From assembly GCA_016932575.1 (NCBI GenBank), contig JAFGCO010000056.1, forward strand, positions 1-64,000: a stretch of 64,000 nucleotides of DNA. The letters are read 5' to 3'. Shown in pieces: positions 41,347-48,780 of this stretch; positions within the stretch are counted from its first letter, which is position 1, and the number at the start of each line of letters is the position of its first letter. Under the pieces are notes generated by a model. The model had not been told where the DNA came from, made no database searches, and saw only the letters and a list, made by a program, of their open reading frames with translations. Source of the stretch: a bacterium. Lineage in GTDB: Bacteria; Zhuqueibacterota; QNDG01; JAFGCO01. The position numbers and the translations under genes were made by a program.

Positions 41347-43599
41347 ATGGGCGATACCGATTATAAACTGCCATTTAAAGAAAAAATTGCCTACGGATTT
41401 GGAGATCTTGCCTCAGTTCTTTATTGGCAGACCTTTATGCTCTACTTTACATTCTTTTATACGGATGTATTTTTGATCCCGGCCAGCGCGGCAGCCACCA
41501 TGTTTCTTGTCAGCCGGTTATGGGATGGTTTTAACGATCCGATTATGGGAATGATTGCAGACCGGACAAACACACGATGGGGAAAATTTCGACCCTACCT
41601 GCTATGGCTGTGCATTCCCTTTGCCTTTATTGGTGTGCTGACATTTACTGTGCCCGATTTTGGTTTCACCGGAAAGATGATCTGGGCCTACACAACATTT
41701 ATTCTTATCATGATGCTGTACACCGGGATCAATATCCCATATACGGCACTTCTGGGGGTCATATCCCCGGATTCAAAAGAACGAACCACAGTCTCTTCTG
41801 TAAAATTCATGTTTGCTTTTACAGCGGGTATTATTGTGTCAGCCACACTTCTTCCTATGACCAAACAACTGGGAAAAGACAACAGTTCCATTATACATGC
41901 CGAAATTAATAATGATTCCGTTCAGATCACAGAAAAGGGAGTCGGCGCATCAAACATTATATTATTTGCAGAAGATCAAAACGGCATTAAAAATAAAACT
42001 GAATTCGGATTCAGGGTTTACCCCCGGGAAAGCAATAAACCGGTCGTTCAGAATCCTGTGGATCCGATTATGCTGATCAAGGGATTCAACACTCACAGGG
42101 TGCCAATATCTCAGGTGTTTGACTCTCAGCAAAAGCATGCTCTTGAATATAAAATAGAAAACAGTGATACGACCGTTGTTCACACACGCGTAGACAGCTC
42201 TTATCTGTATATTGATGAACTATCTGTCGGCATCGTTCAGCTGCAATTAAAGGCCATTGATATAGAATGGGGCGACTGTACCCATGAATTCTTCATCAGT
42301 GTCAATGATTCCCTCAATTCTTCACCGGTTTTAATCGATAGTGCAAATGAACTCAATCTTATGAACGGGTTTCAATCAAAACGCATTGATTTATCAGAAA
42401 TATTTCATGATCCCGACGGAGATACTCTGAAATACGAAATTCAGGTCAGTAATAAGGGAGTCATCATACCGGAAATTCACAATAATGAGCTTTTAATCAT
42501 CGAGGATGAACCTGGAATCACCCGTTTAACCCTGCGAGCCAAAGACGGACGCGGCGGTCTTTCTGAAACCCAGATACAAATCATTGTGTCAACGGATAAA
42601 AACAATCCGCCCTATTTAAGCGGGTCCATATCAAATCGCGTTGTATTTCAGGGATTTGAACGTCAGGATATTTCGCTGGCTGATCTGTTTACCGACCTGG
42701 AAGGCGATCAAATCACCTATTCCCTTCAGGTTGTTAATACTGCCAGAGGCTGGCAGCGTACATTTATTTTTTACGGTACTGCAGCCATCTTGTTCTTTTT
42801 AATCGCGTTTAAAGGAACACATGAACGGGTGAAGCTTCCCAAAACTCAAAAATCTTCCATTAAAAAAGATTTGTACGAACTGATAACCAATGTGCCCTGG
42901 CTGATACTTCTTGCCACAACAATTACCTTTATTCTTTTTGTTGCAGTACGAAGTAGTGTCACCGCACATTATTTTAAATATGTGATTGGATCTCAGAATG
43001 TCTCGTTACCATTTATTAAAACAAAAACTTATAGTTTTGAAACCCTGGTTTCCGCTTTCAATACAATGGGACAAATCGCCTCCCTGATTGGGGTTGCACT
43101 GGTCAGCTGGTTTGCGAAACAGGTTGGAAAAAAACGGGCGTTTATCATCATTTTCCTGGTTGCAATTTTCAGTACAGGCGCCTTTTACTTTTTAAGTGCC
43201 GAACAGATCGGTCTGATTTTCTTTTTTCAGATTACCGGCTCTTTAACCGGTGGGCCTCTCAGTGTTCTGCTCTGGGCGATGTACGCTGATACTGCGGATT
43301 ATGCGGAATGGAAGCGAGGTCGCAGAGCCACAGGCCTGGTTTTTTCTGCATCCACAATGTCTCAGAAATTCGGATGGGCATTCGGCGCTTTTGTGGCACT
43401 GAATCTAATGTCACAGGTCGGATTTCAGGCCAACAAAGCACAGACGCCGGAAAGTCTGAAGGGGCTGATTCTGCTTTTCAGTCTGATTCCTGCGGGCATG
43501 GGTGTGCTTTCCGTAATCATTTCATTCTTCTATCCGCTCAATGAGAAACATGTTAAAGAAATAGGAACCGAACTGGAATCGCGCAGAAAGAAAGAGTAA
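41347..43599 (+). CDS. GPH/MelB-type sugar symporter with a cadherin/Ig-like insertion between TM5 and TM6
   Basis: A 750-residue transporter; glycoside-pentoside-hexuronide (MFS) symporters are usually ~450-500. GGAGG precedes the ATG. Residues 1-178 are the normal first five helices (KIAYGFGDLASVLYWQTFML, SRLWDGFNDPIMGMIADRTN, NIPYTALLGVISPDSKERT). Residues 465-750 are the normal remainder (ARGWQRTFIFYGTAAILFF, then LLWAMYADTADYAEWKRGRR). In between, residues ~180-464 hold extracytoplasmic repeats: a C-terminal half (180-230), two full copies (231-325, 326-418) and an N-terminal half (419-464). Copies share N-G-F-x(5)-I-x-L-x-x-x-F-x-D, GD-x-L-x-Y-x-I-Q-V-x-N and a R-A-K-D-G-x-G-G strand, like cadherin-type repeats. 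The broken halves together give 97 residues, one full repeat, so the chain can leave and re-enter the membrane at one place. Sugar transport is inferred from the family; the insertion may bind glycan or a partner protein. Confidence 0.9.
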   Translation: MGDTDYKLPFKEKIAYGFGDLASVLYWQTFMLYFTFFYTDVFLIPASAAATMFLVSRLWDGFNDPIMGMIADRTNTRWGKFRPYLLWLCIPFAFIGVLTFTVPDFGFTGKMIWAYTTFILIMMLYTGINIPYTALLGVISPDSKERTTVSSVKFMFAFTAGIIVSATLLPMTKQLGKDNSSIIHAEINNDSVQITEKGVGASNIILFAEDQNGIKNKTEFGFRVYPRESNKPVVQNPVDPIMLIKGFNTHRVPISQVFDSQQKHALEYKIENSDTTVVHTRVDSSYLYIDELSVGIVQLQLKAIDIEWGDCTHEFFISVNDSLNSSPVLIDSANELNLMNGFQSKRIDLSEIFHDPDGDTLKYEIQVSNKGVIIPEIHNNELLIIEDEPGITRLTLRAKDGRGGLSETQIQIIVSTDKNNPPYLSGSISNRVVFQGFERQDISLADLFTDLEGDQITYSLQVVNTARGWQRTFIFYGTAAILFFLIAFKGTHERVKLPKTQKSSIKKDLYELITNVPWLILLATTITFILFVAVRSSVTAHYFKYVIGSQNVSLPFIKTKTYSFETLVSAFNTMGQIASLIGVALVSWFAKQVGKKRAFIIIFLVAIFSTGAFYFLSAEQIGLIFFFQITGSLTGGPLSVLLWAMYADTADYAEWKRGRRATGLVFSASTMSQKFGWAFGAFVALNLMSQVGFQANKAQTPESLKGLILLFSLIPAGMGVLSVIISFFYPLNEKHVKEIGTELESRRKKE

Positions 43600-43856: not shown

Positions 43857-45335
43857 TCATTTCAGTTTATTCGGAAACAGCTTGTCAATCATCTCTTTTT
43901 CAGGGGGTCGTGTAAATAAGCTGATTAAAATCAGCGATCCGATGGATACCAGCATCGCAGGAAAGATGGAGGGGATCCCCCACGGATCACCCTCTTGTAT
44001 CACGGAAGGCCAGATATGGGGCACCAGTTTGTCCAAAAACAGGGTGACAAGTGCACCGGACACAATGGCAGCCAATCCGCCTGCTCGGGTTGCACGTTTC
44101 CATGTTAATGCAGCAATCAGCACCGGTGTGATGGCCACACCATACATGGTGTAGGCAAAATATGCCGAATGCAACACAGAAATCGGTTTATTTAACAGCG
44201 TGGGAATAAATATCATGGCAAACGCACACAATCCCAAGAGAATCACAGCGATTTTTTGCCATACAACCTGTTTGCGTTCGGAAAGAGAAATGTTAAAAAA
44301 TTTCTGAATCAAATCCCGCATCACATTGGTGCTGGGCGATAACAAAAAATTGGTACCGGTGGACAGTAAAACCGCCCATGCTGCTGCCAGCAGCAAAACA
44401 CCGATCGGCGCCGGTACCATATACCGGGCCGCCAAAAGCACCATGGCGCCGCCTTCTTTACCCTGCCCCCAGAAATGGACAGCCGCAAAAATCGCAATGA
44501 TGACAACAACCACTTCAACAATAATGGTACCGAAAATCCATAAAGATACAGCCGATCGCGCATCTCTGGGCGATTTCGCACTGTAGAACTTCTGATACAT
44601 TGACTGTTCGCCCATTAAAAGCAGTAGAGTCGCAAAAAAATATCCGAACGCTTTTAATGCCGGCCTGGCGCCAAAATCGGGACTGAATATTTGGAAATGG
44701 CCGGCTGGCAATGTCGCAACGGCTCCGGAAAGACCGCCCGCCTTAATGATCACAAAAGGTGTGGCGATAAGGCAAGCCAGAAGAATTAGAATACCATTGG
44801 GCAAATCCGTATGGGCCACAGAGATCATACCGGCTGAGACGGTAAACGCGATAATAAAAAAAGCGCTGACGGCCTGCCCCCATGCAACTGAAATCTGACC
44901 ATCTGTAATGATATTCAGTATATACCCTCCCGCCCGGAATTGGTAGCTGACAATCGTGACAGAAGCAATAATCAATGCAATAGTGCCAAAAAGACGGGCA
45001 AACCTGCCGTAACGCACTTCAAGAATATCTCCAATCGTATACTGCCCGAATGTACGGATTTTGGCAGCCAGAAAGTAAATAACAATAATACCCAGCCAGG
45101 CGCCTGCCGGCAACCAGAGCGAACTGAAACCAGCCTTGTAGGCATATTCAGCGCCCGCAATGAATGTACCGGAGCCAATCCAGGTAGCAATCAGTGTAAA
45201 TACAATCACATGAATGGAAAGGGACCGTCCGGCCACCATGAAATCCTCATGGCTTTTGACCTGTCTGGAACGATATACATTGATCCCCAGAAGAATTAAA
45301 TTGTAGACCAGGATGATCGCTAGAAACCAATACAT
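43857..45335 (-). CDS. Sodium:solute symporter (SSS family)
   Basis: A 492-residue integral membrane protein with about 13 hydrophobic helices and an SSS-type core: DFMVAGRSLSIHVIVFTLIA, TWIGSGTFIAGAEYAYKAGF, RYGRFARLF, and LLAAAWAVLLSTGTNFLLSPSTN, which fits the sodium-site helix. It probably imports an organic solute with Na+. GGGAGG stands 4 bases before the ATG. It lies 13 bases after the M24 peptidase stop, so proline or a peptide breakdown product is a possible substrate, though this is inference. Confidence 0.9.
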   Translation of the reverse strand: MYWFLAIILVYNLILLGINVYRSRQVKSHEDFMVAGRSLSIHVIVFTLIATWIGSGTFIAGAEYAYKAGFSSLWLPAGAWLGIIVIYFLAAKIRTFGQYTIGDILEVRYGRFARLFGTIALIIASVTIVSYQFRAGGYILNIITDGQISVAWGQAVSAFFIIAFTVSAGMISVAHTDLPNGILILLACLIATPFVIIKAGGLSGAVATLPAGHFQIFSPDFGARPALKAFGYFFATLLLLMGEQSMYQKFYSAKSPRDARSAVSLWIFGTIIVEVVVVIIAIFAAVHFWGQGKEGGAMVLLAARYMVPAPIGVLLLAAAWAVLLSTGTNFLLSPSTNVMRDLIQKFFNISLSERKQVVWQKIAVILLGLCAFAMIFIPTLLNKPISVLHSAYFAYTMYGVAITPVLIAALTWKRATRAGGLAAIVSGALVTLFLDKLVPHIWPSVIQEGDPWGIPSIFPAMLVSIGSLILISLFTRPPEKEMIDKLFPNKLK

Positions 45336-45348
45336 GCTTCCTCCCTTT

Positions 45349-46533
45349 TTACAGATCCATTAATATCAGGCTTTCCTGCAGTTTTCCGGATACAAGCGCT
45401 TCACCTTTCGGGGAAATAAAAACATCGATCTCAGTCCGGACCGCCATCTCCCCTTTCAAATATATTCCGGGTTCAATGGAAAAACAGAGTCGCGGAATCA
45501 GCCGACGCTCCTCTTTGGTTTCAAGGTTATCAATATTCGCGCCATTACCATGCACTTCCCGGCCGATGGAATGGCCGGTGCGGTGAATAAAATATTCTCC
45601 GTATCCAGCCTTCTGAATCACGGCTCGCACAACATCATCCACCTGCCAGCCGTAACAGGGCTCGTTCTTGTGAATTTTATTCCTAATAAACTCCAATCCC
45701 GCGTTTCTGGCATCACGGGCAATATTGAATATTTTTACATATTTTGAAGGAGGATTCATCCCGGCAAATCCGCACCAGGTAATATCCACCCAAATCGCAT
45801 CCTTTTTATTGAACCTGGCCCACAAATCAATCAGGATCGTGTCTCCCTTCTGAATGGCATAGTGATTATCAGGTGTGGGTTCAAAATGGGGATTGGCCGG
45901 ATGGTCGTTCACGCCCACAATCGGATTCTCTCCCTCACAGGTCATGCCTTCTTCATGAAACCTGCGGACAATCCATTGCTGAATGTCGTATTCGGTGATT
46001 TTTTTACCTTGCTTCAGTGCAGATTCTATTTTCGTAAACGCCTCATCCTTGATCTGATATATTTTCTCACTGGCTTTCAGATGGGACTGAAAACCTGCTT
46101 CATCAATGACTGCTTCAAAAATCTGAATCAGATCGGCTGATGAAACCACCGTGTGGCCGAAACTGCGGATCAATTCTATCGTGCCGGCATCGACCATGGA
46201 AACATAGGGAATATGATTATCGGGCGAATACTGCATGGCAATTGTTTTCGCTGAACCAAGCATTTCTTTTAAAATTGTATGCAGCTCGTTCCAGGAAAGA
46301 TAATATAACAGTTCGCCGGGAAGAGAATCCAGTTTCGCCGGTTCCACGCGATGGCAAAGACGAACCGGTTCTCCTTCGGCCGGAACATAATAAAACCACC
46401 GCCGGCTGGTCAATTTACCAGAGTCCAGATCCAGCACTCGATATGCGATGGGATCGCGGTTATGAAAATCGTAAAACAGCCAGCCGTCCGATCCGGCCCG
46501 GCGAATTTCCTGCTGGATCATCCTGATATCCAT
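45349..46533 (-). CDS. M24-family metallopeptidase (Xaa-Pro aminopeptidase-like)
   Basis: A 394-residue M24 peptidase with creatinase-like N-terminal domain (~1-150) and a C-terminal pita-bread domain. All five metal ligands are seen: Asp in ILIDLWARF, Asp in IWVDITWCGF, His in FIHRTGHSIGREVHG, Glu in FSIEPGIYL and Glu in VRTEIDVFI. The RTGHSIG context fits prolidase and Xaa-Pro aminopeptidases. No signal peptide, so it acts in the cytoplasm. The start is the ATG with GGAG 5 bases upstream; two earlier codons are in frame without a site. It is followed by the SSS symporter. Confidence 0.92.
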   Translation of the reverse strand: MDIRMIQQEIRRAGSDGWLFYDFHNRDPIAYRVLDLDSGKLTSRRWFYYVPAEGEPVRLCHRVEPAKLDSLPGELLYYLSWNELHTILKEMLGSAKTIAMQYSPDNHIPYVSMVDAGTIELIRSFGHTVVSSADLIQIFEAVIDEAGFQSHLKASEKIYQIKDEAFTKIESALKQGKKITEYDIQQWIVRRFHEEGMTCEGENPIVGVNDHPANPHFEPTPDNHYAIQKGDTILIDLWARFNKKDAIWVDITWCGFAGMNPPSKYVKIFNIARDARNAGLEFIRNKIHKNEPCYGWQVDDVVRAVIQKAGYGEYFIHRTGHSIGREVHGNGANIDNLETKEERRLIPRLCFSIEPGIYLKGEMAVRTEIDVFISPKGEALVSGKLQESLILMDL

Positions 46534-46603
46534 ACACACTCCATTCTGATCAGATCCGAATCACCCCGGCAATCAAATCTCTCCTGGATTCCGGCAGACA
46601 TAG

Positions 46604-46615
46604 ATCACTAGTGAT
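46604..46615. promoter_or_regulatory. 12-bp perfect palindrome upstream of the M24 gene
   Basis: ATCACTAGTGAT lies about 71 bases before the M24 start, in the 135-base gap after the trehalase. It could be an operator for the peptidase-symporter pair. No promoter hexamers fit well next to it. Confidence 0.3.
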
Positions 46616-46668
46616 TGGTGAACTTATCGAAATTTTATTCTCCCGGATTTAAAAAATGCCGTCCGAAA

Positions 46669-48780
46669 TCAAGACTGGTCCTCAAACAGCCACTCCGGAG
46701 GAATCATCTGGTTTAATTCGTCATGTAAATCCTCTTTAAGCAATTTAAGACCAACTTGATAAGAAGCGTTCATCCATCCGAACCCTTCGCGAGTGATATA
46801 GGCGAATTTGGTGCCCACATTGCCGTATTCCGCAAACACCTGATGAGACCTTGTAACTACGTTGAACTTTTCCGGAATTGTACCATTGTAATCCACTGCA
46901 TTCCGGATAATCGTATACAGCCAGCGGTAAATCAGCCGCTGGGCATGAGAATCATGATGATAATTGCACAACGCCTGCCATGCGATCATCTGATGGGGCG
47001 CCCACCCGTGCGGATAATCCCATTGCCGCTGCGGACGCAATTCCGACACAGGGCCCCGCGATTTTTCAGAAGAAGCAGCCAGACCCCCTGGAAATTCAAG
47101 GTAATTCAGAAGACAGCGGATTAAACGGTCTGCTTCCGTATCCGTCAGAATTCGGGTATCTGGACGGTCAGGATCACAAGCCCACAGTGGATAAAACGCG
47201 GTTGCGCTTATATATGGATGAGAATATTCGTCAACAAAATTGTAATCATAAAATAAAGCATCTGCTTCGTTCCAGAAATATTGACGAATTGATTTTTTCC
47301 TGTTGTCTGCAAGCTTTTTCCATGCGGCTCCTGTCTCTTCTGATCCTCCCGGCATGACGAGGGTTCCCTCAAACAAATGATCAATGAAAAATGCCATATC
47401 AATCTCGGTTTTATACAGGAGCGCATTCAGATCAACAGGCACAAAATCCGCACAGCGGTCCTTACCCCCCGCCCACCATCGGTAAGTCGTGTCATGACCC
47501 GATTCACGAACGGCGCGGTCATGCACGAAAAATTGATCGAGCTCACTCTGCAGAACCTTCCCCTCTTTATACTGCCGCTCAAATTTACGGACCAGCATAC
47601 CCAGTGATTGTGCGTAAGGCTGATATATCGCATCAAAATGTCCGGATTCCACTTCCACCGGCGGTCCCAACCCCTCTCCGAAATACCGGCTCAAACCGGT
47701 TCCTGTAAGCCGTTTCGGATGCATCCAAACCTGTTGATATTCCCGGATGATCGCCTGGCAGACCTGTTTCATCCAAGCTTTTGATTCTGATGTTTTTGAC
47801 ATTTCATTGTAAACCGCCCTTGCCATACTGCTTAAAAAAGGCGGCTGAGATCGGGTTAAATAATAGGTTCGGTTGGCATTGAGAATTTTGCCATAATGAT
47901 TGATCTGATAGACATGATGATCGACCATACACTTTGCCAAATCCACTCGCCCGTCTGTAAGCAGACCCAGAACGATGAAATAGCTGTCCCAACCGTACAT
48001 TTCATTGAAACGTCCCCCCGGCACGACATAGGGTTTTCCCAGAATTTCTCCGGATGAATCCATGACTGAATCAAGTATGAGCAAACCATGACGGCCCTCC
48101 AGTGACTGAACGGCTTTGGGAGTGATTTCCGGAGGCAGCACCCGAATCTGTATATTTTGCGCATGCAGGTTATCTTTATGCGTCTTAAAATAGTTGCTGG
48201 CTGTCTTGTCCGAAAATGGAATATATAGGTTCAGGCCATCTGACTTGACTTTTTCGTCTGCAATCACCCCCGGCAGATTATGGAGTTCGATTTTTCGCGT
48301 TAATCCATCCCAGAAGAGAGTGCGTATCTGACGGGAAAAACGCTGCACAGGATCTTCAAAAATTCTCTGAAAATCCAGTTCACATATCACTTCACCCCGG
48401 TCCAGCGCCAATTTCAATTCCTGAAGGAGATTGGCCAGATAGTAATTGCCGCGCACTTCGTAACATTTTTGATCCACGGTTGTTATTAAAAATTGTTTAT
48501 CACCATGATGCTCTCCATCAAAATGATCATCAATGGTAATCTTCAGATCCTGATCCACATCCTCTTCATCAATCAGACGTTGAATCGTGTTTTTTACATG
48601 AACCTGAATTTTGGGTGTTTTTTTCATCATGCCGGTATTTGAATACAATGATAAATAAAACAGTAAGATAAAGAAACTCGCGATTTGAATCCGCCGTTCG
48701 GTTCTGTTTTTTTCCAACACGCAAGCCCTCTGTATCGGTAATCTTGCGACAGGATTTTTTCTGTTACCTGTAAAAAGCAT
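46669..48780 (-). CDS. GH37 trehalase
   Basis: A ~700-residue trehalase, which hydrolyses alpha,alpha-trehalose to glucose. Both family signatures are present: VVPGGRFNEMYGWDSYF (~residue 257) and QWDYPHGWAPHQM (~587). The catalytic Asp lies in VRESGHDTTYRWW, where most members have E-S-G-W-D; the partner Glu is in GTIPEKFNVV. The N-terminus is uncertain: the frame opens at 48780 without a good ribosome site, and the first ~50 residues hold one hydrophobic helix (IASFFILLFYLSLYS) that would export or anchor the enzyme. A start at the ATG pair near 48630 would leave a cytoplasmic enzyme. A sugar symporter (41347) is 3 kb away on the other strand. Confidence 0.9.
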   Translation of the reverse strand: MLFTGNRKNPVARLPIQRACVLEKNRTERRIQIASFFILLFYLSLYSNTGMMKKTPKIQVHVKNTIQRLIDEEDVDQDLKITIDDHFDGEHHGDKQFLITTVDQKCYEVRGNYYLANLLQELKLALDRGEVICELDFQRIFEDPVQRFSRQIRTLFWDGLTRKIELHNLPGVIADEKVKSDGLNLYIPFSDKTASNYFKTHKDNLHAQNIQIRVLPPEITPKAVQSLEGRHGLLILDSVMDSSGEILGKPYVVPGGRFNEMYGWDSYFIVLGLLTDGRVDLAKCMVDHHVYQINHYGKILNANRTYYLTRSQPPFLSSMARAVYNEMSKTSESKAWMKQVCQAIIREYQQVWMHPKRLTGTGLSRYFGEGLGPPVEVESGHFDAIYQPYAQSLGMLVRKFERQYKEGKVLQSELDQFFVHDRAVRESGHDTTYRWWAGGKDRCADFVPVDLNALLYKTEIDMAFFIDHLFEGTLVMPGGSEETGAAWKKLADNRKKSIRQYFWNEADALFYDYNFVDEYSHPYISATAFYPLWACDPDRPDTRILTDTEADRLIRCLLNYLEFPGGLAASSEKSRGPVSELRPQRQWDYPHGWAPHQMIAWQALCNYHHDSHAQRLIYRWLYTIIRNAVDYNGTIPEKFNVVTRSHQVFAEYGNVGTKFAYITREGFGWMNASYQVGLKLLKEDLHDELNQMIPPEWLFEDQS

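Follow-up and report, generated by a model that had tools for sequence, protein, structure and literature searches.

In the window, the whole 64,000-nucleotide stretch of DNA that was analysed, a long open reading frame (Table 1) encodes a protein that is, by its sequence, a GPH (MelB-type) symporter with predicted sugar/cation transport. The gene stands alone, with a DUF6588 gene on one side and a sodium:solute symporter gene on the other; this second symporter is followed by an M24 peptidase and a trehalase-family glycosidase, the three downstream genes lying on the minus strand (43857-48780) and convergent with the transporter. The GPH profile TIGR00792 matches the protein with 360.5 bits, above its curated cut-off of 231.35, and does so in two pieces, the first of which stops at residue 181; the Pfam MFS_2 match (PF13347) is interrupted at profile positions 163/165, that is, at the same break. 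In 12-TM MFS proteins with a cytoplasmic N-terminus the TM5-TM6 loop is periplasmic (the established MFS/MelB topology), and it is exactly in this loop that the window protein carries an insert of 286 residues (179-464), so that the sequence-only reading, which had placed about 285 extra residues at this point of a GPH protein, was right. Around the insert the likeness to the MelB/GPH family extends from the profile score to the fold and the cation site. The predicted model superposes on the MelB structure 9old (VIA Z 36.9, 441 residues, 3.6 A), giving a MelB-like 12-TM fold, and D60, N63, D64 and T126, which are invariant among 14 insert-bearing homologs, align with the Na+-site residues of MelB (D55, N58, D59 and T121; PMC11259710). 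What sets the window protein apart from MelB is the predicted folded insert.

Table 1. Window positions of the transporter gene and of the parts of its product
Feature	Positions	Strand	Residues and remarks	Basis
GPH:cation symporter ORF	41347..43599	+	750 aa; ATG at 41347, stop 43597-43599, upstream ggaggaaata	
TM1-TM5	41347..41880	+	1-178	MelB alignment, invariance in homologs, MelB site from PMC11259710
C-half of split domain	41881..42033	+	179-229; predicted strands D-G	AF2, profile tests
Whole repeat 1 (R1)	42034..42315	+	230-323; cadherin-like; W308 kept in 12/16	profiles, AF2, structure matches
Whole repeat 2 (R2)	42316..42600	+	324-418; CADG/Big_9-like; DPDGD motif 355-359	profiles, AF2, structure matches
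N-half of split domain	42601..42738	+	419-464; predicted strands A-C	AF2, profile tests
TM6-TM12	42739..43596	+	465-750	profile matches and predicted model

The insert consists, in this order, of a C-half (51 residues), R1 (94), R2 (95) and an N-half (46). The earlier claim that the two halves are complementary and that 51 + 46 residues make up one repeat is borne out (97 residues), and the split repeat is confirmed in its open reading frame, its coordinates and its repeat bookkeeping. When the N-half is placed before the C-half a single near full-length match to the repeat profile is obtained in 16/16 proteins (46-82 bits), whereas in the natural order, with the C-half first, the match breaks up into two half-matches. 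With profiles trained solely on R1 or solely on R2 and then scored on the joined halves, the median scores were 59.4 and 59.2 bits, respectively, over 90-92 of 94-95 positions, which is the level of the R1 versus R2 cross-scores (medians 61.4 and 60.6 bits). Shuffled halves score about -1 bits with the same profiles and the joined ones score like whole repeats, so the complementarity is not due to chance. The half lengths are 51 + 46 in 15 of the 16 proteins (the exception, L081, has 47 + 46), while the length of R1 varies from 93 to 118 across the same set. The number of whole repeats between the halves also varies: there are two in the window protein and 15 others, three in L018, where both halves are intact around them, and none in four proteins of rumen Bacteroidales (L050-L052 and L059), which have the two halves alone in about 94 residues (joined halves 27-38 bits, profile positions 12-78). 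Constant halves together with a variable number of repeats match the prediction of a base domain with optional guests.

Predictions with AF2, for which a single chain was modelled from alignments of only 14-16 sequences, gave a mean pLDDT of 79.6 for the full protein, with most blocks of the insert at 76-91, and of 91.4 for the insert alone (90.3-91.4 over five models), with no residue below 50. Both terminal halves are ordered in the model of the insert alone, at a pLDDT of about 90 or above. Together with the strand pattern and the profile scores this agrees with the proposal of the sequence-only reading that the two ends fold together into a third domain, the pairing being predicted from these indicators rather than read off as contacts. 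The models have seven strands in each whole repeat, the last four of which are found in the C-half and the first three in the N-half, which puts the break in the C-D loop. In the CADG/cadherin-like fold strand C pairs with strand F; as F lies in the C-half, the strand predicted at 457-463 needs a partner in the other half. These models favour a base formed by a circularly permuted domain, with two further repeats as the bridge, and the module would leave and re-enter the membrane at one place, as had been proposed. The individual domains are predicted to be dystroglycan-type cadherin-like (CADG) sandwiches: modelled R2 is a seven-strand CADG sandwich and matches the juxtamembrane domain of dystroglycan (8uf4; Z 10.4, 2.6 A, 94 residues) and a Saccharophagus domain (2yhg; Z 10.0, 2.3 A, 91 residues), although structural aligners follow the sequence order, so that a permuted domain is unalignable and such comparisons mainly test R1 and R2. 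Straight cadherin pairs fit the R1-R2 pair at about 16-18 A only, over about 180 residues, suggesting that the chain is sharply bent between the two repeats, and such a bend is what closure of the chain onto the base would require. With a pTM of 0.72 the angles between domains are uncertain, so the closed ring that we infer for the domain chain stays a predicted shape. Pfam Big_9 scores 17.9 bits on R2, below its cut-off of 23.6, and has no match to R1 or to the joined halves; the insert is therefore called CADG-like by fold and is not filed as Big_9.

Repeats of the CADG/Big_9 type are found in bacterial surface and carbohydrate-active proteins, and Bacteroidales proteins carry long arrays of the very repeat seen here. 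The window repeats share with them the fold and the motif (an N-P start, DxDGD and closing strands) but are placed in the loop of a transporter, with a permuted register and on what is predicted to be a closed path. Split Ig-like domains are known from RTX adhesins, where a module projects from the domain that it interrupts (PMC12077191); there, however, the order is N-half, guest, C-half, whereas in the window insert it is C-half, R1, R2, N-half, and the guests would bridge the natural ends of the domain. The nearest precedent is provided by the mammalian MFS peptide transporters PepT1 and PepT2 (POT family), whose MFS fold houses two tandem Ig-like domains that bind trypsin and that in PepT2 can be removed without a change in KM (PMC4597091). 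They resemble the window protein in having tandem Ig-like sandwiches in a non-cytoplasmic MFS loop, but differ in the loop used (TM9-TM10 rather than TM5-TM6), in the number of domains (two) and in the transporter family (POT rather than GPH), so the comparison is one of how the modules might work; a base domain made from both insert ends is not described in the passages of PMC4597091 that were consulted. The earlier statement that MFS transporters with large folded domains in the TM5-TM6 loop are rare has to be corrected, given the well-studied PepT1/PepT2 precedent for folded domains in extracellular MFS loops and the fact that the window protein is no singleton: at least 17 proteins, itself included, share its layout. 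Its companion, that no cadherin-like array of permuted order is known from an MFS loop, holds in the literature searched, where nothing relevant linking cadherin with the GPH transporter family was found either.

The same architecture is present in more than a dozen further genomes. Relatives with the module come from KSB1/Calditrichaceae (Calditrichota), Bacteroidales (Bacteroidota), Balneolaceae and Planctomycetota (Phycisphaerae, Sedimentisphaerales); with four or more bacterial lineages sharing the layout, it is genuine, yet it is an optional addition to a known family. Within the groups searched it is uncommon, full-length insert matches being found in 3/82 genomes of its own phylum, 4/393 of the order of G082 and 3/298 of the class of G085. 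A misassembly, which the sequence-only reading had allowed for, or a frameshift is excluded because many independent genomes carry this architecture; with no composition break and nothing found in its favour, an assembly or annotation artefact can be practically dismissed. The GC content of the insert (41.1%) makes no marked break with that of its flanks (43.8/43.7%), so composition gives no sign of a foreign origin, and recent capture from another protein of the same genome was rejected since the insert profile has no other match there at 1e-8.

Relatives lacking the insert reach as much as about 80% identity over the membrane part. When presence and absence of the insert are mapped on a membrane-part tree made by a quick method, 10 changes are required, of which at least six are forced by well supported branches, a count that does not tell gain from loss but that eliminates a single origin followed by simple vertical descent. 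Distances between inserts correlate with those between membrane parts (rho 0.78), which indicates that the two share much of their history, and the window protein and L007 are 83% identical in the membrane part as against 38% in the insert; the insert tree is poorly resolved, with 3/12 branches starred. In three Prolixibacteraceae proteins without the insert (L026, L029 and L032) the loop has seven extra residues, in the context GVINEAKGF, and inserts usually end in VINEAKG, so that this is likely, by sequence, to be the deletion scar of a lost insert. Clean insert-less TM5-TM6 loops are seen as well.

Genes for GH94 and/or GH130 phosphorylases lie close to the insert-bearing genes L007-L010, L012-L016, L018 and L127, joined by a second GH130 and an AGE-family epimerase in the neighbourhoods of L014 and L015 and by an epimerase-cellulase fusion in that of L016. 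A carbamoyltransferase-family gene is placed divergently upstream of the insert-bearing transporter in L009 (2858-4744) and L018 (2962-4821). No glycoside phosphorylase adjoins the transporter gene in the window; elsewhere in the same genome there are both GH130 types, at 54% and 59% identity to the pair next to L014, as well as two GH94 genes that are more distant (34-37%). The company kept by its relatives points to a beta-1,4-linked gluco/mannodisaccharide as the probable cargo, which would make it a beta-linked glucoside or mannoside rather than melibiose. Insert-less relatives whose membrane parts are about 80% identical keep the same GH94/GH130 neighbours, so the insert is an accessory module, which would leave the pathway unchanged.

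We give a probability of about 0.6 to the reading in which a Na+-coupled beta-disaccharide GPH symporter carries a split-base CADG module as a docking or capture platform. The inner-membrane symporter would import beta-linked disaccharides of the cello- or mannobiose type, for example mannosylglucose, and its TM5-TM6 hairpin would hold an accessory periplasmic module of three CADG sandwiches. The membrane-proximal one would be permuted, with strands D-G right after TM5 and A-C right before TM6, and R1 and R2 would bridge its natural ends, the chain returning to its starting point next to the N-terminal transport bundle. The ends of an Ig-type array are far apart and those of a TM hairpin are adjacent; a split base would reconcile the two and would allow whole repeats to be gained or lost in any number with the anchor undisturbed. 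The module would be dispensable for transport and would gather, close to the importer, enzymes that produce oligosaccharides, or the products of these enzymes, docking or capture being our best guess in view of the PepT1/PepT2 analogy and of the optional nature of the module. The rigid cap, glycan receptor or docking site put forward in the sequence-only reading are likewise hypothetical roles. The more specific picture of a closed ring of three cadherin-like domains (four in L018) on a permuted base, standing at the periplasmic mouth of the symporter as a platform for hand-over from enzyme to importer, we regard as doubtful.

The repeated absence and fast divergence of the insert also fit a passenger, an array captured long ago that is merely tolerated as a harmless periplasmic fold and easily lost. 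The patchy distribution on the membrane-part tree, the clean loops, the likely scar in Prolixibacteraceae and the unaffected KM of PepT2 after removal of its extracellular domains (PMC4597091) agree with this, but neutral inserts should decay, whereas these have kept open frames, invariant fold positions and constant half lengths across several phyla at identities down to 25-30%, and we consider it rather unlikely. To about the same degree improbable is a function of the CADG domains as carbohydrate-binding modules that retain oligosaccharides by the entrance: cadherin domains of Saccharophagus degradans are reported as such modules (a title cited in PMC3124978), W308 is conserved in most inserts (Table 1) and phosphorylases and an epimerase are neighbours, yet CADG repeats are also frequent as structural spacers and no candidate site was identified in the insert. 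The profile tests are compatible, too, with a domain swap in which the paired N-half and C-half come from neighbouring molecules, linking symporters into dimers or chains, and AF2 modelled one chain only; but in the monomer prediction the two halves are already ordered (pLDDT about 90), and the short linker that joins the halves in the L050 group, where whole repeats are lacking, favours closure within one chain, making a swap very improbable.

On the preferred reading of a docking or capture platform the insert points to a possible coupling between the breakdown of periplasmic glycans and their uptake in little-studied phyla. Its predicted layout would show how an array with distant ends can enter a tight membrane hairpin, one repeat being split and the others bridging it, and a ring with a permuted base, if true, would be a reusable way of plugging Ig-type arrays into such hairpins. 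The role of extracytoplasmic domains in secondary transporters is unsettled even for PepT1 and PepT2, and the symporters with and without the insert (membrane parts about 80% identical) form a natural pair for its study.

In other GPH proteins the TM5-TM6 loop accommodates inserts unrelated to this one, which were checked as intermediates. Those of L003 (G000:C46:90040-91689, 570 aa) and L068 (4986-6800) are about 110-130 residues long and helical by eye; those of L159 (G410:C149) and L160 (G238:C85), about 85 and 135 residues, respectively, have no match to the repeat profile, the one in L160 being a beta-rich-looking domain without a Pfam match. Additions on the extracytoplasmic side are thus a recurrent feature of GPH transporters in these bacteria; the distinctive one is the array that is split and, as predicted, closed. 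In a second GPH transporter of the same genome, encoded outside the window, the TM9-TM10 loop holds propeller-type repeats of the FG-GAP/VCBS kind (PF13517, 44.6 bits); the gene for this transporter is split over two contig ends (L002, G000:C13:1-1329, and L004, G000:C62:81742-82681), each of which stops inside near-identical repeats.
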